The notes beneath the pieces are model-generated. The model made no database searches. It was given only the letters and a program-made list of their open reading frames with translations, and was not told the origin of the DNA. Both the position numbers and the translations under genes were made by a program. Below are positions 25,553 through 39,068 of a stretch of 64,000 nt of DNA, in pieces (position 1 is the first letter of the stretch; every line of letters starts with the position of its first letter). The stretch covers positions 349,198-413,197 of the forward strand of contig DASUCV010000009.1 in the NCBI GenBank assembly GCA_036275915.1, given 5' to 3'. The DNA comes from Candidatus Polarisedimenticolaceae bacterium. GTDB lineage: Bacteria; Acidobacteriota; Polarisedimenticolia; Polarisedimenticolales; DASRJG01.

Positions 25553-26179
25553 TCAGAGAGCGGCGATCCTCCACGTCCCGTCCGCGGCGCGTGTGAAGAA
25601 GATCCACTTCGGCCGTGTCCTCGCGCGGAGTGCGCGGATCGACCAGTAGGAGCCGACCTCACCCTCGAGCACGTACCCACTGAAGGCTTCGACCATGTCG
25701 CGCATCCGATCGAGGTCGCCCGCGGTCCCCGCGGCGAGGCACTGCTGCGCGAGCGCGCGGTCGCCTCCCTTCATCGCGCCGACGAACGTCTTGAGCGTGC
25801 GCTCGGGCGACCCCCAGCGCGGGTCGGAGGTGAAGACCGAAGGATTGATCACCGGGCGGATCGGCTTGCCGAGGGATGAGGACGTCGCGCGCGGCACAGG
25901 AGGCGGGGTGAAGGAGGCCGGCATCGCCTTCGGGCGGACCGGCGCCGCCGCCTTGGCCGTCACTTTCGGTTTCACCTTCGCTTCGGGAGGCGCCGCCGGT
26001 TCGGCCACCTTCTTCTTCCGGGCAGGCGCCATGTCGCAAGGATCGTTCTGAAGGACGATCGCTCCCGACGCGTCTTTGCACTGGTAGGTCTCGTCGGGGG
26101 AGGCGGTCGCAGCGTCGCCGGCGTACGCCGCGAGCGATGCCGCGGCGGCCAGAACGGCTCCGGCGAGGAAAGTTCTCAC
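25553..26179 (-). CDS. secreted DUF4124-like protein
   Basis: 208 residues, GTG start. The signal peptide (1-20, ending AAYAG) precedes a short DUF4124-like motif (YQCKDASGAIVLQNDPC, about 33-49). A Lys/Pro/Ala-rich linker (about 52-100) leads to a C-terminal domain (about 120-208) with ERTLKTFVGAMKGGDRALAQQC and a final KWIFFTRAADGTWRIAAL. That domain looks like a small alpha+beta (NTF2-like) fold; this is a shape-based guess. DUF4124 domains are small Cys-paired periplasmic modules of unknown function. TAGATT lies 6 bases before the GTG, consistent with a leaderless message. Divergent from the phosphatase gene. Confidence 0.75.
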   Translation of the reverse strand: MRTFLAGAVLAAAASLAAYAGDAATASPDETYQCKDASGAIVLQNDPCDMAPARKKKVAEPAAPPEAKVKPKVTAKAAAPVRPKAMPASFTPPPVPRATSSSLGKPIRPVINPSVFTSDPRWGSPERTLKTFVGAMKGGDRALAQQCLAAGTAGDLDRMRDMVEAFSGYVLEGEVGSYWSIRALRARTRPKWIFFTRAADGTWRIAAL

Positions 26180-26185
26180 ACCCAG

Positions 26186-26191
26186 AATCTA
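26186..26191 (-). promoter_or_regulatory. putative -10 box (TAGATT) of a leaderless transcript
   Basis: On the minus strand TAGATT-CTGGGT-GTG leads directly into the DUF4124-like gene, with 6 bases between box and start codon. Confidence 0.4.
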
Positions 26192-26253
26192 GCGACGGGA
26201 CGCTCACGGGCAAGGAATGTGCGAATACCGCTAGAATGCGCCCACAAGGACGC

Positions 26254-27495
26254 ATGAGAGACCGCGCCGACATCCTCGAGAGAGTCCTCGAGATCACCCG
26301 CCGGCTCGCCGAGCCGCTCGAGCTCAACGATCTCCTGGGGACGATCGTCCAGGCGGCGCTCTCGATCCTCGATGCCGATCGTGGGAGCGTCTTCCTCTAC
26401 GACGCGGCGGCCGACGTGCTCGTCTCCCGCGTGGCGACCGGGTCGGGCGAGCTGCGCGTCCCGGCGAACCGCGGCTTCGCCGGTGAGTGCGTGAGGACGC
26501 GCGCCGTCGTGGTCGTCAACGACGCCTATGCCGATCCGCGCTTCAACCCCGACGTCGACCGCGCCACCGGCTATCGCACGCGATGCATCCTCACGATCCC
26601 CCTCGTCGGCCACGACGACGCGCTCGTCGGCGTCCTCCAGGTCCTGAACAAGCGCGACGGGACGTTCGGCGAGGACGACGTCGCGGTGGCGACCGCGCTC
26701 GCGGCCCAGTGCGCGGTGGCGATCCAGCGCATGAAGCTGCTGGAGGATCTCCTCGCCAAGCAGCGGCTCGAGCGCGAGCTCGAGGTCGCGAAGGACATCC
26801 AGACGCGCGTGCTCCCGCGCGTCATGCCCGAGCTCGCCGCGTACGAGGTCGCCGGCTGGAGCCGCGCAGCCGATCAGACGGGCGGCGATATCTTCGACGT
26901 GATCGAGACCGGAGGGCGCGTCATCCTCCTCCTCGGTGACGCGACCGGCCACGGGATCGGGCCGGCGCTCTCGGTGACGCAGGTGCGTGCCATGCTGCGG
27001 ATCGCGGTGCGCCTCGGCGCCGGCCTCGACGACGCCTTCCGCCACATCAACGATCAGCTCTCGGACGACCTCTCCTCGAACCGCTTCGTGACCGGTTTCC
27101 TCGGCATCCTCGATACCGAGCGCCACGAGCTGTCGTACCACTCCGGCGGGCAGGGGCCGCTCCTCCACTTCCACGCGGCGCGCGGGGAGGCGACGCTCGA
27201 GACCGCGACCACCCTGCCGATGGGGATGATGCCGATCATGCGCCTGAAGCCTCCGCGCGTGGCGCCGATCGAGGCCGGCGACGTCTTCGCGGCGATCACG
27301 GACGGGATCTTCGAATACGAGAACGCCGCGGACGAGATGTTCGGGGAGGATCGCGTCGTCGATCTCTTCCGCGCCCATCGCGGCTCGACCGCCAGGGAGC
27401 TGCTCGATCTGGTCGTGCGCGAGGTCGACGCGTTCGCCGCCGGCGCCCCCCAGAAAGACGACATGACGCTCGTCGTCCTGCGCCGGAAACCCTAG
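26254..27495 (+). CDS. GAF-domain SpoIIE/RsbU-type protein phosphatase
   Basis: 413 residues from the ATG at 26254 (AAGGA 5 bases upstream); another ATG at 26236 is possible. The GAF domain (about 15-165: LDADRGSVFLYDAAADVLVS) is followed by a short coiled coil (LLEDLLAKQRLERELEVAKD). The PP2C-like SpoIIE domain has its metal Asp residues in GGDIFDVIE, LGDATGHGIG and ITDGIFEY, and a final DDMTLVVLRR. Such proteins dephosphorylate anti-anti-sigma factors in partner-switch pathways after sensing a ligand through GAF. No anti-sigma or STAS gene is adjacent. Its stop codon overlaps the opposing MBL-fold gene stop at CTAG (27492-27495). Confidence 0.92.
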   Translation: MRDRADILERVLEITRRLAEPLELNDLLGTIVQAALSILDADRGSVFLYDAAADVLVSRVATGSGELRVPANRGFAGECVRTRAVVVVNDAYADPRFNPDVDRATGYRTRCILTIPLVGHDDALVGVLQVLNKRDGTFGEDDVAVATALAAQCAVAIQRMKLLEDLLAKQRLERELEVAKDIQTRVLPRVMPELAAYEVAGWSRAADQTGGDIFDVIETGGRVILLLGDATGHGIGPALSVTQVRAMLRIAVRLGAGLDDAFRHINDQLSDDLSSNRFVTGFLGILDTERHELSYHSGGQGPLLHFHAARGEATLETATTLPMGMMPIMRLKPPRVAPIEAGDVFAAITDGIFEYENAADEMFGEDRVVDLFRAHRGSTARELLDLVVREVDAFAAGAPQKDDMTLVVLRRKP

Positions 27496-28328
27496 AACGC
27501 CAGCTCCATCCCCTCCCGCGCGACGCACGCCGTGGGGAGCTCCGACCTCGTGATCCGCTGGATCTCGTCGAGCTGGTCGTCGGTGTGCTCGGGGTGGTGG
27601 TGGAAGAGGACGAGCCGGGAGACCCCCGCCGCGCGGGCGGCCTGCACCGCGGCGAACCAGGTGCTGTGGCCCCAGCCCTTCCGCAGGGTGTCGTACTCGG
27701 CGGGCATATAGGTCGCGTCGTAGATGAGGTGGTCGGCGCCTCGGGAGAACTCCGCCAGGGCGCCGTCGACTGCTGCATCGCCATATTCGTGGTCGGTGGC
27801 GAAGATGATCCGCCGGCTGCCGTGGCTCAGCCGGTAGGCGACCGAGCCGTCCGGGTGGGACAGCGGCATCGAGTCGACCTGGAGGTCTCCCACGTCGAAG
27901 GTCGAGCCGTCGACGTCGCGGAACTTGACCGTCGCCGGGACGCCGGCGAGGCGGAGCGGGAAATAGGGGGGCGCGATCAGCGTCTCGAGGTTGTCCTGGA
28001 CGGTCCGCCCGTCGGCCGCAAACCCATGAAATATAACGGTGTTAGCGGCATCGTACAGCGGCTGGAAGAGGGAGAGCCCCTCGACGTGGTCGAGGTGGTA
28101 ATGGGAGAGGAAGATGTTGATCCGGGTCGCCTTCCCGGCGCGCTTCTTGGCGATCGCGACCCCGAGATTCCGGACTCCCGTGCCGCAATCGAGGACGAGG
28201 TACTCGTCTTCGGCGAGCTCGACGGCGGCGCACGGCGTGTTCCCGCCGTAGCGCAGCTTGTCGGCCGCCGGCGTCGCGACGGTGCCGCGTACCCCCCAGA
28301 ACCGCAGCCGGTAGTCCTTTGCTGACAT
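27492..28328 (-). CDS. MBL-fold metallo-hydrolase
   Basis: 278 residues, cytoplasmic. It opens RLRFWGVRGTVATP and continues LRYGGNTPCAAVEL, as in the beta-CASP-free PqqB/phosphodiesterase-like MBL group. The metal motif is SHYHLDHVEG (HxHxDH), followed by MPLSHPDGSVAYRL, FATDHEYGD (bridging Asp) and a terminal FHHHPEHTDDQ. All dinuclear-zinc ligands are visible, so it should be active. Related proteins are cyclic-nucleotide phosphodiesterases or are fused to receivers in two-component systems. The CHASE2 cyclase at 35498 makes phosphodiesterase activity an attractive but unproven idea. GAGGGCGAG precedes the start, and a TAGAAT box lies about 22 bases upstream. Confidence 0.88.
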   Translation of the reverse strand: MSAKDYRLRFWGVRGTVATPAADKLRYGGNTPCAAVELAEDEYLVLDCGTGVRNLGVAIAKKRAGKATRINIFLSHYHLDHVEGLSLFQPLYDAANTVIFHGFAADGRTVQDNLETLIAPPYFPLRLAGVPATVKFRDVDGSTFDVGDLQVDSMPLSHPDGSVAYRLSHGSRRIIFATDHEYGDAAVDGALAEFSRGADHLIYDATYMPAEYDTLRKGWGHSTWFAAVQAARAAGVSRLVLFHHHPEHTDDQLDEIQRITRSELPTACVAREGMELAF

Positions 28329-28519: not shown

Positions 28520-31500
28520 ATGATCGGCAAGTGGTCGGCGGGTGGTTCGGCGCGACGTGCGTGGTTCCTGGCCGCGGTGCTTGTCGCGGGGCCGGCAGTG
28601 GCGGCGACGAAGACCGTCGACCTCGACGGTCAAGCGGCGAACGGCGCCGAGAGCCAGTGCGATCTCAACGTGCTGCAATCGTTCCCGGTCAAGATCGAGA
28701 ACAAGGTCACGAGCAAAGCGGTCGGTGACGCGTACACGTTCTCGTGGCCTTCGGCCGGTCCGGGCGGGTTCACCTCGAGCATCACGCCGGGCTCGACGAC
28801 TGGCGTCGGAGCCAAGTGGACCTGGACGACGAATCAAACCGTCTACTCCTACACGGGCGGCAGCTGTGCCAACGACATCTGCTTCGGCCAGACCGCCGGA
28901 CCGGACACGTCGGCAGGAACGTGCAGCGACGCGTGCCTGCTCGACGGGGAGACGGTCAACGTGGCGAAGGGCGCGGTCGCCGGGACGGTGGTTCTCACCT
29001 GGACCGGCGGAACCGGAACGTTCACCGTTTACCGCGCGACCAGCGCGAACGGTGTCGTCCAGACGGTCAACGCGATCGGCACGACCGATCTGTCCACACT
29101 CACCGACACGCCGCCCACGAACTCGAGCGTGTTCTACGTCGTACGAGGCACCGATTGCACGACGCGCAAGGCGTGTGTCACGAACGCCGACTGCTCGGCG
29201 CCGGGTGACGGCTTCTGCGTCAACCGCGGACCGTTCGGCGTCCCGGGCCGGTCGCTCCTCGCGACCGACGTGACGGTGTCCGCGTCCTCGCTGACCTCGA
29301 GCCTGATCACGTTCTTCAGCCCGCCCAAGACGGTCTTCAGCGTCACGAGCACGGCCCAGGCGGGCGGCTCGCAGGAAACACTGTCGAACTTGTCCGACTC
29401 TCCGGTGACCGCGTTGACGCAAGAGTACCCGCCGGGATGCTGCCCCGCGGATGCCGACGGCAGTCCCCAGCTCCGCTGCGGGGACACGTGCGTCGAGTAC
29501 CTCCAGGATTCGCAGAATTGCGGCGCGTGCGGCAACGTCTGCGGCGACGGGAGCTGCTGCGTCCAGGGCGTGTGCGCCTCGCTCTGCCCGGAAGGCACGA
29601 CCTACTGCAACGGCCAGTGCGTCGACCTGTCGAGCGACAGCACCAATTGCGGCGCATGCGGCGTCCTCTGCGGCGACGGATCCTGCTGCAACGGAGGGGC
29701 GTGCGCCTCGATCTGCAGCTCGGGCGACAGCTACTGCGGCGACGGCGAGTGCGCCGACCTCCAGAACGACAACAACGATTGCGGCGCGTGCGCGACGAAC
29801 TGCGGCGCGGGTACCTGCTGCTCGGCGGGGGGATGCGCCTCGCTGTGCGCCCAGGGCAAGACGTGGTGCCATGACGCCTGCGCCGACTTCCAGAACGACA
29901 ACGCCAACTGCGGCGCGTGCGGGAACGCCTGCGGCGCCGGCACCTGCTGCAACGGCGGGACGTGCGCCTCGGTCTGCGCCGCGGGCCAGACGTTCTGCAA
30001 CGGGCAGTGCGTCGACTTCCAGCACGACAACGCGAACTGCGGCGCGTGTGGAAACGCCTGCGGCGACGGCACGTGCTGCAACGGCGGCTCCTGCGTGTCG
30101 GTGTGCGCGGCGGGCCAGGTCTGGTGCAACGGTCAGTGCGTCGATCCCCAGAGCGACAGCGCCAACTGCGGCGCGTGCGGCAACGCCTGCGGCGACGGCA
30201 CCTGCTGCAACGGCGGCACGTGCGCCTCGGTCTGCGCCGCGGGCCGCGTCTGGTGCAACGGCCAGTGCATCGACCTCCAGGACGACAGCGCCAACTGCGG
30301 CACCTGCGGCAACTCGTGCGGCTCCGGAACGTGCTGCAACGGCGGCACGTGCGCGTCGGTCTGCGCCGCGGGCCAGGTCTGGTGCAACGGTCAGTGCGTC
30401 GACCCGAAGAACGACAGCGACAATTGCGGCGCCTGCGGCAACTCCTGCGGCGCCGGCACGTGCTGCAACGGCGGCTCCTGTGTCGGCGAATGTCCGGCCG
30501 GGCGCACGTTCTGCAACGGCTACTGCGTCGACCTTCAGAACGACCGGAACAATTGCGGGTCTTGCGGGCACGCGTGCGGTAGGGACGACAACGAGTGCGA
30601 GCACGGCCAGTGCGAGCACGACGACCTGACGACGCTCGACGGCGGCGGTGGCGGCGGGCCGATCCCCGCGGTCTGCCCGAACCCGAACCCGACGCACCCC
30701 GTGCCGGGCTACTGCCCGAACCCGAACCCGGCGAGCCCGGTCGGCGGGTCGTGTCCGAACCCGAACCCGACACACCCGGTCGCCGGCTACTGCCCCGACA
30801 CGACGCCGACGCATCCGGTCGCCGGAGTCTGCTCGAACCCGCATCCGTCGCCCGGGCCGGTCGCCGGCGTGTGCCCGAATGCGGATGTGTCGTATGGACC
30901 GGTCGCGGGGGTCTGCCCGAACGCGTCGCCGAGCTGGCCCTCGCCGGCGGTGTGCCCGGCCAGCGTCCCACAGGGGACGACGACACCTCCCGCGCCCGTC
31001 TGCCAGATCGAAGCGACGTCGACCACGATCCCGCCGGGAGGCACCAACACGATCTGCCGGCAGGGCGGAGTTCTCTTCACGGAGGTGCCGACCTCGGTCT
31101 CCGCGTGCGGGGACAGCCTGCCCGGTCCGAACGGCACCTGCGGGAGCGGCGTGACCCACGTCTCATCCGGCACCTTCATGCGGCTGGTTCCCGACCCGAC
31201 GAAGACGCTGGGCGATGCGTACCTCACGCCGTACGCCGTCCACATCAGCGATACGTCGAACGACGGGATGCTCGAGCCGGGAGAGTCGGCCACCCTGCTC
31301 ATCGACGTCGTCAACGCCGGGGCCGTCAACATCACCTCCGCGAGCGCGACGTTGACCGCGGCGGTCGCCGACCTCTCCCAGGACGGGATCAACAACCCGG
31401 TCGGCGTCACGATCAACACGGGAACGTCGAGCTACGGCGCCGTCCTCGGCACGCAGCCGACCACCAACTGCGTGCCGCCCGTGCTGCACCCGGCAACGAA

Positions 31501-32065
31501 CACCGTGCCGTTCCAGATCACCGTGCCGGCGAGCCATCCGGGCGACACGAGCCATCCGTTCAACCTCGCCTTCACGGGGACCGTCAACGGCTCGCCGTTC
31601 TCGATGAACGTCCCGCTGACGATCGGCATCGCCGACGTCTGCGTTCCGGCGGCGAACACGCGTGACTTCGACGGGCTCGACGGGCTCTCGTCGCCGATGG
31701 CGAAGCTCGCTCCCGTGGGCGACGCCGTGCCGTTCCCGTCGAAGGCGTTCTCGGCGGGCAACTCGAGACCGATGAAGCTACGCGTGCTCTGCGGGGGCGC
31801 GAACCTGACCGACGCGACCGTCGATCCTCCGGAGATCGTGGGGCTCTCCGAGGCGACGCGCGGCGCCCTCGACATCCACCTGCTCAACTTGAATGCCGAC
31901 AGCGGCACGAACCCGAACGATCCGTTCTTCCGCTTCAACAACACGTTGCAGGGCGGGCAGTGGAACTACAACATGCGCACGTCGCTGCTCGGAACGGGAA
32001 CGTTCACGCTCACGATTCGCATCGCCGGACGCAAGGAGTACGTCACCGGATTCGTTCTTCAGTAG
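28520..32065 (+). CDS. giant secreted Cys-rich repeat protein (Stig1-like repeats)
   Basis: 1181 residues from the ATG at 28520 (GGGGG about 6 bases upstream). Signal peptide (1-28, ending PAVAA), then an N-terminal part with an FN3-like segment (VVLTWTGGTGTFTVYRAT; VFYVVRG). Eight and a half tandem 43-residue Cys repeats (CNGQCVD...NCGACGNxCGDGTCCNGG) with eight Cys each come next, then a Pro-rich array of CPNPNPTHPVAGY units of 12-15 residues. The last 370 residues are Ig-like, with an LEPGESATLLIDVVNAG segment as in surface CARDB-type domains. Probably a rigid, disulfide-locked extracellular stalk. The FecR-barrel gene follows 73 bases later on the same strand, so co-expression is plausible. 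Confidence 0.87.
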   Translation: MIGKWSAGGSARRAWFLAAVLVAGPAVAATKTVDLDGQAANGAESQCDLNVLQSFPVKIENKVTSKAVGDAYTFSWPSAGPGGFTSSITPGSTTGVGAKWTWTTNQTVYSYTGGSCANDICFGQTAGPDTSAGTCSDACLLDGETVNVAKGAVAGTVVLTWTGGTGTFTVYRATSANGVVQTVNAIGTTDLSTLTDTPPTNSSVFYVVRGTDCTTRKACVTNADCSAPGDGFCVNRGPFGVPGRSLLATDVTVSASSLTSSLITFFSPPKTVFSVTSTAQAGGSQETLSNLSDSPVTALTQEYPPGCCPADADGSPQLRCGDTCVEYLQDSQNCGACGNVCGDGSCCVQGVCASLCPEGTTYCNGQCVDLSSDSTNCGACGVLCGDGSCCNGGACASICSSGDSYCGDGECADLQNDNNDCGACATNCGAGTCCSAGGCASLCAQGKTWCHDACADFQNDNANCGACGNACGAGTCCNGGTCASVCAAGQTFCNGQCVDFQHDNANCGACGNACGDGTCCNGGSCVSVCAAGQVWCNGQCVDPQSDSANCGACGNACGDGTCCNGGTCASVCAAGRVWCNGQCIDLQDDSANCGTCGNSCGSGTCCNGGTCASVCAAGQVWCNGQCVDPKNDSDNCGACGNSCGAGTCCNGGSCVGECPAGRTFCNGYCVDLQNDRNNCGSCGHACGRDDNECEHGQCEHDDLTTLDGGGGGGPIPAVCPNPNPTHPVPGYCPNPNPASPVGGSCPNPNPTHPVAGYCPDTTPTHPVAGVCSNPHPSPGPVAGVCPNADVSYGPVAGVCPNASPSWPSPAVCPASVPQGTTTPPAPVCQIEATSTTIPPGGTNTICRQGGVLFTEVPTSVSACGDSLPGPNGTCGSGVTHVSSGTFMRLVPDPTKTLGDAYLTPYAVHISDTSNDGMLEPGESATLLIDVVNAGAVNITSASATLTAAVADLSQDGINNPVGVTINTGTSSYGAVLGTQPTTNCVPPVLHPATNTVPFQITVPASHPGDTSHPFNLAFTGTVNGSPFSMNVPLTIGIADVCVPAANTRDFDGLDGLSSPMAKLAPVGDAVPFPSKAFSAGNSRPMKLRVLCGGANLTDATVDPPEIVGLSEATRGALDIHLLNLNADSGTNPNDPFFRFNNTLQGGQWNYNMRTSLLGTGTFTLTIRIAGRKEYVTGFVLQ
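29477..30630 (+). repeat. tandem 129-bp repeats encoding 43-residue Cys-rich units
   Basis: Eight full units (one has 44 residues) and a divergent ninth. The signature is CNGQCVDxQxDxANCGACGN followed by ACGDGTCCNGGxCxSVCAAG. Units four to eight are almost identical at nucleotide level, which indicates recent expansion. Composition is like Stig1-type repeats in myxobacterial surface proteins. Confidence 0.85.
30660..30980 (+). repeat. short Cys-Pro-Asn repeats (CPNPNPTHPVAGY-like)
   Basis: About nine units of 12-15 residues, each starting with C(P/S)N and most carrying PVAG. They degenerate toward the C-terminal side. They directly follow the 43-residue array inside the same protein and probably form an extended Pro-rich spacer. 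Confidence 0.75.
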
Positions 32066-32138: not shown

Positions 32139-35100
32139 ATGGATGTCTCGGTACGCTTGAATTGTCTCTGGGTCCGCCGGAGGGCGCTCTGCGCCCTCTT
32201 CGCTTTTGGAGCCTCCGCCACGTTTATGGCGCACGCCGCCGACGGAAGCCTCGCGAAGGTCACGGCGGTCCAGAACACCGTCGAAGCCAGGACGTCTTCG
32301 GGCGCCTCGTGGTCGGCCGCCAAGAACGGGGACCCGTTGAAGGCGAACGACCGCGTGCGCACCGGACCGGGGAGCCGTGCGGCGATCCTCTACTCCGACC
32401 AGACGCTCCATCGGATGAACGAGAAGAGCGAGATCGAGATCCTTCCGCCGTCCGGCGGCGGCACCGGGATCGTCAAGATCCTTTCGGGCCAGAGCTACTT
32501 CACGACCCGCACGCCGAAAGACTTCGGCCGCGTTCAGACGCCCACGGTCACTGCTGCGATCAAGGGCACGGAGTTCGCCGTGTCGGTCGATGACGACGGG
32601 ACGTCCGTCGTCACGATGATCGAGGGAACGGTCGAGGCGTCGAACGAGTTCGGCGCCGTCACCGTGACGAAGGGCGAAGAGGCGGTCGCGGCACCCGGCA
32701 AGGCCCCCCAGAAGCGGATCATCGTCAAGCCGCGCGACGCGGTGCAGTGGTCGCTCTACTTCCCGCCGGTTCTCGGCGGGGCCGATGCGGAGCGCCTCAA
32801 GGGATCGCCGCTGGCGGGCGCGGCGACCGAGCTGTCGAGCGGCCAGGTCGACGCCGCGAAGAAGACGATCGCGGACGCCCAGGCGGCCGATCCCCACAAT
32901 CCCGTCGCGCTCGCGCTCGCATCGGTCGTCGCCCTCGCGGCGGACGACCGTGACCGCGCTCGCTCGCTCGCCGACCAGGCCGTCGGCGCCGATCCGAAGT
33001 CGCCGTCGGCGCTCCTCGCCCGGTCGTACGTGGCGCAGGCCGATTTCGACATCGACCGCGCGGCGAAGCTCGCCGAGCAGGCCGCCGCGGCCGACCCGCA
33101 GAGCGCCGAGGCGCAGGCGCGCGTCGCCGAGCTCCGGCTCGCGATGGGCGATCGCAGCGGCGCACGGAAGGCGGCGGAGGCCGCCGTCTCGCGCCAGCCG
33201 GGGAACGCCCGCGCGCTCACCGTGCTCGGCTTCGTGCAGCTCGCGCAATTTCAAACGAAAGATGCCGCGGCGAGCTTCGACAAGGCCGTCGCGGCCGACG
33301 GCGCGTTTCCGCTGGCCCACGCGGGCCGCGGCATCGCCCAGTTCCGTCTCGGCCACCTCGGCACCGGCAAGGAAGAGTTCCAGACGGCCGCGACGCTCGA
33401 CCCCGCGGAGTCGCTCTACCGTTCGTACCTCGGCAAGGCGTACTACGAGGACTACCAGTCGAAGCCGGCGTCCAAGGAGCTCGCGGCAGCCAAGAGCCTG
33501 GACCCGCGCGATCCGACGCCGTGGCTCTACGACGCGATCCTCCTCCAGTCGGAGAACCGGCCGGTCGAGGCGCTCGAGAACCTGAACAAGTCGATGGAGC
33601 TGAACGATCAGCGCGCGGTCTACCGCTCGCGGCTGCTCCTGGACGAGGACACCGCCGTTCGCTCGACCGACCTCGCGCGCATCTACAAAGATCTCGGGTT
33701 CGAGCAGCTCGGCTTGGTCTCCGCGCGCCGCAGCGCCGACGAGGACCAGGCGAACTATTCGAGCCACCTCTTTCTCGCGGGCAACTACCAGTCGCTTCCC
33801 GGTTTCGCTTCGTCGTTCCTCAGTGAAACCCTTCAGGCGCGGATCTACCAGCCGGTCGGCGTGAACGCCGTGCGCCCGGATTCACAGACCGGCGCCGTCG
33901 AGTTCAACGAGTACACGGCGCTCTTCGACCGGCCCCGTGCGCAGGGGTACGTCAGCGGGTCGTACGGCTACACCGATACGAATCTCAGCTCGTACTTCCC
34001 GAACGACCCAGCGACCGAGGCGTTGTTCTCGATCGACAAGAGCGACAACTGGAGCGGCGCTGGCACCGCCACCTACCACAACGACCGGTTCTCGGGTGAG
34101 GTCTCGGTCTCGAAGGTCTCGGACGACGGCTTCCGTGTCAACAACGACCAGGACACCACGGTCTACTCCGGCCTCTTCGAGGGAGCGCTCTCGGGACGCG
34201 ACACCCTCCAGCTGAGCGCGATCGTCGCGAACCGGAAGAATGGCGACCTGCCGCTCCGGGAGATTCCGGTCCTTCCCTTCCCCGAGCATTTCGACACCGA
34301 CGAGCTGAACTTCGGCCTCGCGTGGCACCGCGAGATTCACCGCGGGACCGACCTCGCCGTCTCCGCGATCTGGAACAGCACCGATCAGACGGGGACGCTC
34401 CTCGGCTCGAGCATCCAGGCCGAGACGAAGCTCTCCGGCCCGCAGCTCGAGGCGCAGCTCGTCCATCGGTCCGGGAACGTCAACTGGATCGCGGGAGCCG
34501 GCGGCTTCGACGGCACCTTCGAGGCGACGCCGAGCTCCGGCACCACGACCAAGGCCGACGAGCGGTTCGCAAACGCGTACGGTTACGCCAAGCTCCGCGG
34601 CCTGGGCCCGGTCGACGTCGTCGCCGGGTTCGCCGTCGAGAGCGTCGACTCGCCGGTCGGGCTCCTGCCCCCGCGCGACTCGTTCATCGGCCAGAGCGAC
34701 GTCAAGTTCCAGGGCACAGCCGTCAGCCCGAAGGTCGGCGCCTCCGCCACCTTCAAGAGCGGCACCACGATCCGCGCCGCGATCTTCTCGCGCCTCGCCG
34801 CCAGCATCGGCCGGCTCCAGACCCTCGAGCCGACGCAGGTCTCCGGCTTCAACCAGTTCTTCGAGGATGTCGGCGGAACGAAGTCCACGAACTACGGCAT
34901 CGGCTTCGACCAGCAGCTCATCTCGAAGATCTTCTTCGGCGGGTCGTGGCTCCATCGCGACCTCGACGTCCCCGAGGCGAGCTGCCCGACGCCGGATCCG
35001 TTCTCGGGCTGCGCAGGCATCCCCGGCACCCTCCTCGTTCATCGCAACGAGAACGTCGAGCTCGTGTCCGCCTACGCGAACGGTCTCATCGGGAAGCGCG

Positions 35101-35498
35101 TCACGGCGTCGTTCGAATACGTGCTCGAGAACCGGATGTTCGACACGACGCAGCTGTCGCCGCTCGCCCTCTTCGAGAATTACGTGAAGACCGAGCGGTA
35201 CCATCCGGAGGCGCGGGTCTTCCTGCCGTTCGGACTCTACGCCGTCGTCGGCGCGACGTACTACGCGCAGCGGATCCAGCAGTTCGACGACCTCGTCACC
35301 CCCGTTTACACGACGATCACGCCGCGCTTCTGGACGATGAACGCGGCGATCGGCTACCGGCTCCCCGATCGGCTCGGCCTCGTGACCCTCGAGGGGACGA
35401 ACCTGACCGATCGTGAGTTCGACGTCTACCAGCAGTCGCTCCAGGAGCAGGTCATCCCGGCGCGGCGCGTGGTGCTGAAGGCCGACTTCCAGTTCTGA
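32139..35498 (+). CDS. FecR-TPR-outer-membrane beta-barrel fusion protein
   Basis: 1119 residues from the ATG at 32139. Signal peptide about 1-34 (ending MAHAA). The FecR domain (about 45-190) includes DRVRTGPGSRAAILYSD, TPTVTAAIKGTEFAVSVD and VVTMIEGTVEASNEFGAVTV. Seven to nine TPR-like repeats (about 215-520) come next. The last 560 residues alternate in beta-strand fashion and end in an aromatic outer-membrane signature (VVLKADFQF) after a TonB-receptor-like TLEGTNLTDREFDVY. No TonB box or plug domain is seen. FecR domains normally sense outer-membrane events from the periplasm; here sensor and barrel are one chain. The stop overlaps the start of the CHASE2 cyclase by one base (TGATG). Confidence 0.85.
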   Translation: MDVSVRLNCLWVRRRALCALFAFGASATFMAHAADGSLAKVTAVQNTVEARTSSGASWSAAKNGDPLKANDRVRTGPGSRAAILYSDQTLHRMNEKSEIEILPPSGGGTGIVKILSGQSYFTTRTPKDFGRVQTPTVTAAIKGTEFAVSVDDDGTSVVTMIEGTVEASNEFGAVTVTKGEEAVAAPGKAPQKRIIVKPRDAVQWSLYFPPVLGGADAERLKGSPLAGAATELSSGQVDAAKKTIADAQAADPHNPVALALASVVALAADDRDRARSLADQAVGADPKSPSALLARSYVAQADFDIDRAAKLAEQAAAADPQSAEAQARVAELRLAMGDRSGARKAAEAAVSRQPGNARALTVLGFVQLAQFQTKDAAASFDKAVAADGAFPLAHAGRGIAQFRLGHLGTGKEEFQTAATLDPAESLYRSYLGKAYYEDYQSKPASKELAAAKSLDPRDPTPWLYDAILLQSENRPVEALENLNKSMELNDQRAVYRSRLLLDEDTAVRSTDLARIYKDLGFEQLGLVSARRSADEDQANYSSHLFLAGNYQSLPGFASSFLSETLQARIYQPVGVNAVRPDSQTGAVEFNEYTALFDRPRAQGYVSGSYGYTDTNLSSYFPNDPATEALFSIDKSDNWSGAGTATYHNDRFSGEVSVSKVSDDGFRVNNDQDTTVYSGLFEGALSGRDTLQLSAIVANRKNGDLPLREIPVLPFPEHFDTDELNFGLAWHREIHRGTDLAVSAIWNSTDQTGTLLGSSIQAETKLSGPQLEAQLVHRSGNVNWIAGAGGFDGTFEATPSSGTTTKADERFANAYGYAKLRGLGPVDVVAGFAVESVDSPVGLLPPRDSFIGQSDVKFQGTAVSPKVGASATFKSGTTIRAAIFSRLAASIGRLQTLEPTQVSGFNQFFEDVGGTKSTNYGIGFDQQLISKIFFGGSWLHRDLDVPEASCPTPDPFSGCAGIPGTLLVHRNENVELVSAYANGLIGKRVTASFEYVLENRMFDTTQLSPLALFENYVKTERYHPEARVFLPFGLYAVVGATYYAQRIQQFDDLVTPVYTTITPRFWTMNAAIGYRLPDRLGLVTLEGTNLTDREFDVYQQSLQEQVIPARRVVLKADFQF

Positions 35499-37471
35499 TG
35501 CGTCCGAAGCGGCGGCTTCGGAAGACCCGGTCGGGGCTCCTCCTCGCGCTCATCCCTGGCGTGCTGGGGGTTCTCTTGATTCACTGGGCCCCGTCGGCCA
35601 CCCTCGAGAAGGCCGGAGGCCTCGACAACCTCTTCCTCCTTCGTGGCACGCGCACGCCGCCGCCCGAAGTGTGCGTCGTGGCCATCGACGACGACTCGTA
35701 CACCGAGATCGGGCGCGACCAAGCCCTCCCGTGGCCGCGCGCCAAGCACGCGGAGCTCTTGAGAACGCTCAAGGCGGAGGGCGCACGCGCCGTCGCCTTC
35801 GACGTCATCTTCGAGGACCCGAGCGCCGATCCGGACGCCGACGAGGCGCTCCGAAGCGCGCTCGCCGACACGAAGTTCGGCGTGCTCGGCGTCGAGGTGT
35901 CGACGACCGAGGATCCGCAGTTCCGGCAGGTTCAGGTCCACGAACCGTACGAGCCGTTCAAAGAAGCGGCGGCGGCGATCGCCGACGTCGGTCTCCCGAC
36001 CGACAGCGACGGCGTCCTCCGCTACGCCTGGACGGCACGCGAAGGTCGGCCGGGCCTGGCGCTCGCCGCGTACGAGCTGGCAACCGGCGACCCGAGCCAG
36101 CGAAGCGACAACGGAAGGGTTCTCGACTACTACGGCCCCGCCCGATCGATCAAGACCGTCTCGATCTACCAGGCGCTCGATCCGAAGCAGTACCTACCGC
36201 CCGGCTTCTTCAAGGACAAGATCGTGTTTGTGGGGACCTCGAGGGACGCGGACCTGGCCGGGGCCTCGAAGGACTCCTTCTTGACCCCCTATCGCGGCGC
36301 GCACGGCTCGATGACCTTCGGCGTCGAAATCCACGCCACCCTCGCCGCGAATCTCCTCGAGCATCGCCAGATCCGACTCTTGGACTCGCGCGCCGAGACG
36401 GCGCTGCTGCTCCTGCTGCCGCTTCTCTCCACGCTGGTCTTCATGTATCTGCGGCCGCTCGCCGCCGGCGGCGCCTTCGTGGCCATGCTCCTCGCTCCGT
36501 GGGTCATGGGCTACGTCGCCTTCAGCCGGTACGAGCTGTGGGTACCGATCGTCATTCCTTCTGCGATCCAGCTTCCGATCTCGTACGGGCTCTCGCTCAT
36601 CTGGTACTACCTCACGACCGTGCGCGAGCGCGAGAAGATCAAGCGCGCATTCGGTCTCTACCTCTCGCCCGAGATGATCAAGCGGATCGCGGAGGACCCG
36701 GACGCCGTCGACCTCGGCGGGCAGGAGATCGTCGGCACGGCGATGTTCACCGACATCAAGGGGTTCACGCCGCTCGCCGAGGGGAAGGGTGCCCACGAGG
36801 TGGCGGCGATGCTAAACGCCTACTTCTCGGAGGCGACGACCCACGTCTTCGACGCGGGCGGCACGCTCATCAAGTACATCGGCGACGCCGTCTTCGCGAT
36901 TTGGGGCGCGCCGATCCCGCGCGAGGACCACGCGACCCAGGCGTGCATCGCGGCGCTCGCGCTGGCGCGGGCGCAAAAATCCGAAGGGGTGGTCGCGCAG
37001 CTCGTCACGCGCATCGGCGTCCACACGGGGCCGATGCTGGTCGGCAACCTCGGCTCCGCGCAGCGGTTCGACTACACGGCGATCGGCGACGCGGTCAACC
37101 TGGCCTCACGCATCGAAGGATTGAACAAGGCGTTCGGCACCTTGGCGCTCGCGAGCGGCGAGGCGCTCCGCGCGACCGATGGGCGGTTCATCACGCGCCC
37201 GCTCGGACGTGTCAAGGTCGTCGGACGCACGGAACCGGTCGAGCTGCACGAGCTCGTCGGAACGAAGGACGAGCCGCCGGCGAACGGTCACCTGGGGGCG
37301 TTCGCCGCCGCCCTCGAGGATTTCCGCGCCGGCCGATTCGCACAGGCCGAGGCGGGGTTCTCGGCGATCGACGGCGACTACGCGTCGAAATTCTTCGCGG
37401 CGTACGCCGGGCGGCTCGCCGCGAACCCACCCGAAGCGTGGGACGGCGTCGTCGTCATCGAGTCGAAGTAG
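35498..37471 (+). CDS. CHASE2-domain class III adenylate/guanylate cyclase
   Basis: 657 residues. An N-terminal membrane helix (LLLALIPGVLGVLLIHW) leads into an extracytoplasmic CHASE2 domain (about 35-310: VCVVAIDDDSYTEIG, AVAFDVIFEDPS, DKIVFVGTSRDADL). Three closely spaced membrane helices (about 300-375) and a short linker (EREKIKRAFGLYLSPEMIKR) come before the class III catalytic domain. The metal-binding Asp residues are D419 (FTDIKGFT) and D463 (KYIGDAVFAIWG). K459 and the Asp in FDYTAIGDAVN match the adenine-selecting pair, so cAMP is the likelier product. One-base overlap with the FecR-barrel gene indicates coupled expression. CHASE2 is the sensory input and FecR-barrel the probable partner. 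Confidence 0.93.
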   Translation: MRPKRRLRKTRSGLLLALIPGVLGVLLIHWAPSATLEKAGGLDNLFLLRGTRTPPPEVCVVAIDDDSYTEIGRDQALPWPRAKHAELLRTLKAEGARAVAFDVIFEDPSADPDADEALRSALADTKFGVLGVEVSTTEDPQFRQVQVHEPYEPFKEAAAAIADVGLPTDSDGVLRYAWTAREGRPGLALAAYELATGDPSQRSDNGRVLDYYGPARSIKTVSIYQALDPKQYLPPGFFKDKIVFVGTSRDADLAGASKDSFLTPYRGAHGSMTFGVEIHATLAANLLEHRQIRLLDSRAETALLLLLPLLSTLVFMYLRPLAAGGAFVAMLLAPWVMGYVAFSRYELWVPIVIPSAIQLPISYGLSLIWYYLTTVREREKIKRAFGLYLSPEMIKRIAEDPDAVDLGGQEIVGTAMFTDIKGFTPLAEGKGAHEVAAMLNAYFSEATTHVFDAGGTLIKYIGDAVFAIWGAPIPREDHATQACIAALALARAQKSEGVVAQLVTRIGVHTGPMLVGNLGSAQRFDYTAIGDAVNLASRIEGLNKAFGTLALASGEALRATDGRFITRPLGRVKVVGRTEPVELHELVGTKDEPPANGHLGAFAAALEDFRAGRFAQAEAGFSAIDGDYASKFFAAYAGRLAANPPEAWDGVVVIESK

Positions 37472-37475
37472 GACG

Positions 37476-39068
37476 ATGCTCCGCACCCTCGAGTCGCTGA
37501 GGCTCGACTTCTCCCCCGATGCCGCCGCTCGCAAGCTCGAAGCGCTGCGCGCGCTCGCTCGCGCCAAGCTCGCGACGCCGCGCGACGTCCTGCGCCTCCA
37601 CGAGGCGGCCGCGTTCATCCGCGCCTACCCGGACGATCGGCAGGTCCTCGAGGCCGCTCGCGACGTTCTCGAGGGCTTCGAGCGGCGCGCGGATCTTCGG
37701 CGGCTCGCTCCATCCCTCGAGGATTCCGGCATCGCCGGCACCGCGATCCGCTACCGCTTCTTCGCCTCGACCGCCCGCTGGCTCGCCCGTCGATTCCCCG
37801 GGCATCTCACGCTCGACTGGTCCGAAGGAGAGTTCGACGAGCGATTGAGCGCGGCGTGGCCCGTCCTCCTCCCCGAGGCTCAAGCGGAGGCGATCCGGCG
37901 CGCCGCGATCGGCCCTCGGGAGGCGATCGAGCGCTTGCGGCAAGCGACCGAGACCGACGCCGAGTTCTACCTCCGGCACGTCGAGGCCCTTCCCGGCGGA
38001 CCTCGCGTGCGTGAGGCGACGCACGACGCGATCGACGCGGCGTACGTGCTCTCGCCGGGGACTGGAACGCCGTCGAGGACCAAGGCGGAGCTGCGGGGGG
38101 CGCCCGTCGTCTTCCGCACGAGCGCGCCGCCGCACGGACGCCCCGATCTCTCGCGCGCGATCGCGAAGCCTCCGCGGCGTGTGCGGACCGCTTCACCCCA
38201 CGAGTCGCGCCGCCTCGTCGACCTGGCGCGCGAGGCGATGGTCACGCGCGCCCGCGATCTCGACGCCTTCGCCCACGGCGATCCGCGTGACGTCCGGATC
38301 GTCGACGACGGCGACGGGCTCGCCTTCGCGCTGATCGGTGTCGCGCCGGCGTTCCGGCTCTTCCTGCCGGCGGTCTACGGCGCGCTCACGCTCCGGAACG
38401 GCGTTCCGATCGGATACGTCCAGATCGACGTTCTGTTCGGCAATGCCGAGATGTCCTACAACACCTTCCCGACCTTCCGGTCCGCCGAAGCTGGGTTCGT
38501 CTTCGGCCGTCTCCTCTCCGCCGTGCATCACGTCTTCGGCACCGCCGCCTTTTCCGTCGAGCCGTACCAGCTCGGCCACGGCAACGACGAGGGACTCGAC
38601 TCGGGCGCCTGGTGGTTCTACGCGCTCGCCGGATTCCGACCGCGCGACCCGGCGGTCGCACGCCTCGCGGCGCGCGAGCTGGCCCGCCGGCGTGCGCGTC
38701 CCGGCTATCGATCGTCCCGCGCGACGCTCGCACGCCTCGCGACCGCTCATCTTCACTGGCCGCCCCGTGCGCGATCGGGCGTCGTCGTGACGCCGATCGA
38801 CCGGATCGGGTTCGCGACGGCCGCGGCCTCGGCGTCGGCGGCAAGGCTCGGGCTCGGTTCACTCCGCGGGTGGAGCGCGAGCGAGCGCGATTGGCTCCGG
38901 CGCTGGGCTCCTCTGATCGCAGCTCTTCCCGGCCTCGAACGATGGCCGGCGCGCGACCGGAGGGCGCTGCTCGAGATCGTTCGCGCGAAAGCGGGGCGGA
39001 GGGAGACCGACTACGTGAAAAAATTTCACGCTCACCGCAGTCTCGCGCGCGCCATTCTCGACCTTTGA
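37476..39068 (+). CDS. protein of unknown function (possible GNAT-like C-terminal half)
   Basis: 530 residues, not confidently recognised. The start ATG follows the cyclase stop by four bases. The first 270 residues are helical and Arg/Ala-rich with no known motif. Residues about 285-400 look like an acetyltransferase-type alpha/beta fold: LRNGVPIGYVQIDVLFGNAE, then FGRLLSAVHHVFGTAAFSVE, and the conserved-looking SGAWWFYALAGFRPRD. The C-terminus is helical and basic (YVKKFHAHRSLARAILDL). No signal peptide or membrane segment, so cytosolic. Position suggests it belongs to the cyclase operon, perhaps as an output or modification component, but that is inference. Confidence 0.7.
   Translation: MLRTLESLRLDFSPDAAARKLEALRALARAKLATPRDVLRLHEAAAFIRAYPDDRQVLEAARDVLEGFERRADLRRLAPSLEDSGIAGTAIRYRFFASTARWLARRFPGHLTLDWSEGEFDERLSAAWPVLLPEAQAEAIRRAAIGPREAIERLRQATETDAEFYLRHVEALPGGPRVREATHDAIDAAYVLSPGTGTPSRTKAELRGAPVVFRTSAPPHGRPDLSRAIAKPPRRVRTASPHESRRLVDLAREAMVTRARDLDAFAHGDPRDVRIVDDGDGLAFALIGVAPAFRLFLPAVYGALTLRNGVPIGYVQIDVLFGNAEMSYNTFPTFRSAEAGFVFGRLLSAVHHVFGTAAFSVEPYQLGHGNDEGLDSGAWWFYALAGFRPRDPAVARLAARELARRRARPGYRSSRATLARLATAHLHWPPRARSGVVVTPIDRIGFATAAASASAARLGLGSLRGWSASERDWLRRWAPLIAALPGLERWPARDRRALLEIVRAKAGRRETDYVKKFHAHRSLARAILDL

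Follow-up and report, generated by a model that had tools for sequence, protein, structure and literature searches.

The window analyzed here is a 64,000-nucleotide stretch of the genome of Candidatus Polarisedimenticolaceae bacterium (contig DASUCV010000009.1; positions below are those of the window). At 32139-37471, two overlapping genes on the forward strand encode a FecR-tetratricopeptide repeat (TPR)-barrel protein, predicted to reside in the outer membrane and referred to as the receptor, and a CHASE2-class III nucleotide cyclase. Together they resemble the NsrA-CyaK pair of Sinorhizobium meliloti, a plant symbiont in which that relay has been characterized genetically. The features of the two genes are as follows (aa, amino acids; ORF, open reading frame; TM, transmembrane; AF2, AlphaFold2):

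32139-32243, forward strand: putative signal peptide of the FecR-TPR-barrel protein (aa 1-35), with a hydrophobic stretch at about aa 17-31 behind RRR and a cleavage-like site, AHA-ADG
32349-32636, forward strand: FecR domain (aa 71-166; Pfam PF04773, 4.4e-16, full profile 1-97)
32808-33845, forward strand: TPR superhelix of about 10 repeats (aa 224-569; Pfam TPR models; helical in the AF2 model, for which the PDB search ranks TPR proteins highest)
33936-35495, forward strand: likely C-terminal outer membrane beta-barrel resembling TonB-dependent receptors, without plug (aa ~600-1119; PF00593 in homologs, Foldseek and VIA, homology to the NsrA barrel)
35496-35500, forward strand: TGATG stop/start overlap, read in the sequence and found likewise in S. 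meliloti nsrA-cyaK and in a genome of the same class (G024)
35498-37471, forward strand: CHASE2-class III nucleotide cyclase gene, 657 aa (ORF and Pfam)
35570-36424, forward strand: CHASE2 extracytoplasmic domain (aa 25-309; PF05226, 8.1e-43), with a TM helix (aa 13-31) at its start (hydropathy)
36737-37228, forward strand: class III cyclase catalytic domain (aa 414-577; PF00211, Guanylate_cyc, 1.5e-20; intact motifs)

The receptor ORF (32139-35498) encodes 1119 aa without an internal stop, begins with a signal peptide-like N-terminus (MDVSVRLNCLWVRRRALCALFAFGASATFMAHAADGS, judged from the sequence), and ends in ...ADFQF. Several Pfam TPR models match the protein at about aa 228-500. A first-pass annotation, made by a model from the letters of the window, had proposed a signal peptide, FecR domain, TPRs, and a barrel in one chain, and this architecture is borne out by the ORF, the Pfam matches, PF00593 in homologs, and a low-confidence structural model. 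A chance ORF was ruled out by long conserved orthologs; the receptor and cyclase ORFs are both more than chance frames because each has orthologs in seven other genomes of the class.

The receptor and cyclase genes meet in the junction TTCTGATGCGT, where the TGA stop (35496-35498) and the ATG start (at 35498) have one base in common. This overlap, also pointed out in the first-pass annotation, is directly readable in the sequence and likely couples the translation of the two genes. By hydropathy, the cyclase has one TM-like segment where CHASE2 begins and further ones behind CHASE2. Its catalytic motifs FTDIKGFT, KYIGD, and FDYTAIGDAVNLASRIE are intact, closely as in CyaK. The Lys of KYIGD and the Thr of FDYTAIGD presumably fit an adenylate cyclase, in line with class III cyclases in general, and the product is most likely cyclic AMP (cAMP).

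The type of the barrel was taken from homologs and from fold searches, since the last ~520-560 aa of the window receptor have no Pfam match of their own, in scans of either the whole protein or the barrel alone. PF00593 scores above the Pfam cut-off in four homologs (L033, 4e-13; L035, 5e-13; L036, 1e-9; L071, 3e-9), and a Plug domain (PF07715) was not matched in Pfam scans of the window receptor, NsrA, or seven homologs. A profile of the barrel found no match among PDB sequences. A barrel-only model built from 4 sequences, of low confidence (predicted local distance difference test, pLDDT, 52; predicted template modeling score, pTM, 0.49), contains ~20 long strands, and TonB-dependent receptors make up nearly all of its top-ranking PDB matches: it was matched to BtuB by Foldseek (E 2.4e-9) and to PirA by VIA (Z 17.1), with structural matches of this low-confidence model at Z 15-17. 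The full-length AF2 model, also from 4 sequences, scores poorly (pLDDT 42 overall, less than 50 in the barrel), and among the PDB matches listed only the TPR part is represented. With TPR helices extending to around residue 569 and strands beginning near residue 600, the chain has no room for a plug; the first-pass annotation had proposed this absence, which agrees with the Pfam result. As to its proposed barrel, the strands and the TonB-receptor matches stand; because the model is of low confidence, a closed barrel is something we infer, albeit as likely, and the fold resembles a TonB-dependent receptor barrel devoid of its plug. Within the barrel of the window, the segment SCPTPDPFSGC (aa ~948-957) carries two Cys that are kept in close orthologs and absent from distant ones, and these may be linked by a disulfide within one loop of the barrel.

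Among plasmids, a protein search led to Sinorhizobium pSymB, one record of which names the genes nsrA and cyaK. In S. meliloti, too, a FecR-TPR-barrel protein in one chain is encoded directly upstream of a CHASE2-class III cyclase, with the same gene order and the identical TGATG overlap as in the window. In NsrA, Pfam places FecR at 66-160 and the TPRs as far as about residue 590, in the same relative places as in the window receptor, and PMC7529298 gives the NsrA barrel as residues 600-1200. Profile-profile comparison aligned the window and NsrA families colinearly over 972 columns (Prob 100, E 1.8e-49). The barrels alone also matched (hhalign; Prob 97.7, E 1.5e-12), compared with Prob 0.1 for a barrel-vs-TPR control, and the window cyclase is 33% identical to CyaK over 618 columns (E 1e-76). 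The two systems differ in that identity is about 22% across the profiles, and in that the class of the window adds a co-inherited Cys-rich secreted gene and often two further neighbors, a metallo-beta-lactamase (MBL)-fold protein and a GAF-SpoIIE phosphatase, all discussed below. As reported in PMC7529298 and PMC13001267, signal perception in S. meliloti requires the outer membrane protein NsrA together with its cognate CHASE2 adenylate cyclases CyaK or CyaD1/D2, and the candidate signal is the ribosomal protein uL2; PMC7529298 also describes a cAMP output that depends on NsrA. The window pair is thus probably a distant member of the NsrA-CyaK kind, and the cross-envelope pathway would be real without being a new kind. 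The first-pass annotation implied a new pathway, which is not supported in view of the match to NsrA-CyaK and its published genetics (PMC7529298, PMC13001267). What is new here is the occurrence far outside the Alphaproteobacteria, the plugless barrel resembling that of TonB-dependent receptors, and the co-inherited Cys-rich gene.

The two genes are conserved as a pair. A full-length receptor homolog is present in 8 of the 41 genomes of the class, all eight of which also have the cyclase (in G031 only its C-terminal part, cut off by a contig end), and orthologs in the seven other genomes are 50-57% (receptor) and 54-64% (cyclase) identical to the window proteins. The cyclase lies directly downstream of the receptor in six of the eight, the window included; in the other two (G031 and G034), the genes are separated by contig ends. 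More distant homologs were drawn from a sample of the phylum and from named assemblies. A cyclase or CHASE2 gene follows the receptor in G167 and G242 (a fragment at a contig end in the latter), while in G044, L033, L034, and L035 such a gene is directly upstream, so that the gene order is reversed and the adjacency kept. Altogether, receptor and cyclase adjoin in 12 of 15 non-alphaproteobacterial homologs, counting the window; of the remaining three, two are interrupted by contig ends and one is a genuine exception. The coupling to a CHASE2 cyclase proposed in the first-pass annotation agrees with this neighborhood survey as well as with the NsrA-CyaK match, and the survey also bears on the refuting condition set there, namely that homologs elsewhere would not be neighbors. 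In favor of the pair, the receptor and cyclase trees mirror each other (r 0.86, 0/2000 permutations), a correlation to which shared species history also contributes. Several CHASE2 cyclases of the phylum (in G016, G042, and G057) come without this receptor and from contigs on which FecR genes are absent, so the pairing does not simply accompany every CHASE2 cyclase.

Could the receptor be mainly a transporter, or an export porin with a TPR dock, next to a co-transcribed cyclase that answers something else? TPR-barrel exporters such as PgaA exist, and the barrel resembles that of TonB-dependent transporters. We consider this improbable, given the missing plug, an adjacency that survives reversal of the gene order, and the genetics that tie the NsrA barrel to the cyclase (PMC7529298). 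The NCBIfam PgaA/BcsC models, moreover, match the TPR part only and score far below cut-off; a PgaA/BcsC-type exporter was dropped as a candidate, the similarity being at the TPR level only.

Associations of FecR proteins with CHASE2 sensors are known in other forms. A Campylobacterota gene cluster (PMC9239204) likewise has a CHASE2 adenylate cyclase beside FecR and TPR proteins and a phosphodiesterase, but FecR and TPR are separate there and fused to a barrel in the window; this split arrangement recurs in G010 (L039), where a TPR gene and a FecR gene of their own precede the cyclase. A Burkholderia operon (PMC5192318) places a FecR-LysM protein next to a CHASE2 histidine kinase, and differs in having neither barrel nor cyclase and a kinase as output. 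In FecA-FecR-FecI, the FecR domain also works with a TonB-receptor-type barrel, whereas in the window the barrel has no plug, FecR is on the barrel chain, the partner is a cyclase, and the genes scanned include no sigma factor. The presence of both a FecR domain and a TonB-receptor-type barrel might suggest a variant of this system whose extracytoplasmic function (ECF) sigma factor is encoded at another locus of the genome, the cyclase being a bystander. We give this very little credence: the FecR domain is part of an exported chain and has no cytoplasmic anti-sigma part, the conserved partner is the cyclase, and Pfam found no sigma factor family among the genes scanned at 21731-42670, in agreement with the first-pass annotation, which had proposed a pathway without a sigma/anti-sigma pair. 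A FecI-type system was dropped for want of a nearby sigma factor.

We favor, at a probability of about 0.78, an NsrA-CyaK-type trans-envelope receptor. The plugless TonB-receptor-type barrel would anchor the receptor in the outer membrane and hold the TPR arm and FecR domain in the periplasm. A signal from outside the cell, probably carried by a macromolecule that binds to surface loops of the barrel, would change this arm, and the FecR/TPR part would in turn act on the periplasmic CHASE2 domain of the inner membrane cyclase, so that cytoplasmic cyclic nucleotide, most likely cAMP, would rise. The idea of an outer membrane protein setting cyclic-nucleotide levels across the envelope, which the first-pass annotation had put forward, appears well supported because published genetics show that NsrA is required for CHASE2 cyclases to signal with cAMP. 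Its further suggestion that barrel occupancy or assembly is sensed found nothing in support; judging by NsrA, a protein ligand from outside the cell is the more likely signal.

Several points weigh against this reading. The window protein does not reach the PF00593 cut-off, and the barrel model is of low confidence. In G195, the genuine exception above, the receptor (L071, 1161-13433) is not beside the CHASE2 gene, which is on another contig; the genes around the receptor encode a TonB-receptor-type outer membrane protein, an MBL protein, and a leucine-rich-repeat protein of 1222 aa. In Sinorhizobium terangae, an NsrA-like gene (L058, 5965-9618) has no adjacent cyclase, CHASE2 cyclases being encoded elsewhere on the same plasmid. 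Finally, the surroundings of the pair yielded no gene for a cyclic-nucleotide receptor. That bacteria far from the rhizobia have the same fused receptor beside the same kind of cyclase suggests an old relay of general use, and the deeper alignment that these homologs provide makes the barrel type (a plugless TonB-receptor barrel) and the contact surfaces testable.

The following genes lie upstream of the pair:

26137-27495, forward strand: GAF-SpoIIE phosphatase, conserved neighbor (PF07228, 9.7e-42; GAF, 2.9e-22)
27492-28328, reverse strand: MBL-fold hydrolase, conserved neighbor (PF12706, 3.1e-18)
28520-32065, forward strand: secreted Cys-rich repeat protein, MXAN_6577/Stig1-like (NF041328, 2.5e-85; PF04885, 2.9e-33), 73 bases upstream of the receptor

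The Cys-rich gene directly upstream of the receptor, which is co-inherited with the pair, is missing from the first-pass annotation. Its product has nine similar Stig1/MXAN_6577 repeats followed by proline repeats of the PNPNPTHPV type, as well as a conserved C-terminal domain, and the number of repeats probably varies, as orthologs differ in length. The C-terminal domain occurs in all eight class genomes with the pair vs. 1 of 33 without it (a weak match), and among candidates for a ligand or surface partner of the receptor this protein ranks first. The pair could accordingly sense this co-encoded protein or another self-made surface component, that is, its own surface assembly rather than an external ligand, a reading encouraged by the close spacing on the same strand and by the co-occurrence just given. 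We regard it as rather unlikely, since the Cys-rich gene is not beside the pair in G031 and is separated from it by other genes in G003, and since the alphaproteobacterial systems have different flanking genes (the Cys-rich gene was not searched for there). Equally speculative is a three-component surface sensor, in which the Cys-rich protein would be the dedicated ligand or surface partner of the plugless barrel, which would signal through FecR/TPR to the CHASE2 cyclase; the NsrA relay would then have begun long ago as a sensor of the cell's own surface, and rhizobia would later have adapted it to signals from plants.

The MBL-fold hydrolase and the GAF-SpoIIE phosphatase are also near the pair in G003, G019, G024, and G031. 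The hydrolase may possibly be a cyclic-nucleotide phosphodiesterase, although the RNase Z model outscores that of cyclic-nucleotide phosphodiesterases (NF041851) and neither comes near its cut-off. On the other side of the pair, 3' of the cyclase and on its strand, is a 524-residue frame (37494-39068) with no Pfam or NCBIfam match.

On a plasmid of Azospirillum sp. B510 (L059, 5295-9884), a CHASE2 cyclase gene lies downstream of a small hypothetical gene and directly upstream of a gene for an ShlB/FhaC-family barrel, a possible alternative outer membrane partner for CHASE2.

As candidates for a cAMP-responsive regulator of the Clr kind, four cyclic nucleotide monophosphate (cNMP)-binding proteins are encoded in the genome of the window, none adjoining the pair. 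A CRP/FNR-like one is without the usual Arg. The GE...PRT phosphate-binding motif occurs in a cNMP-FHA protein and in a frame ending with a single cNMP domain (L075, 332-1153; L077, 673-1575), and by this motif both are candidate cyclic-nucleotide receptors.

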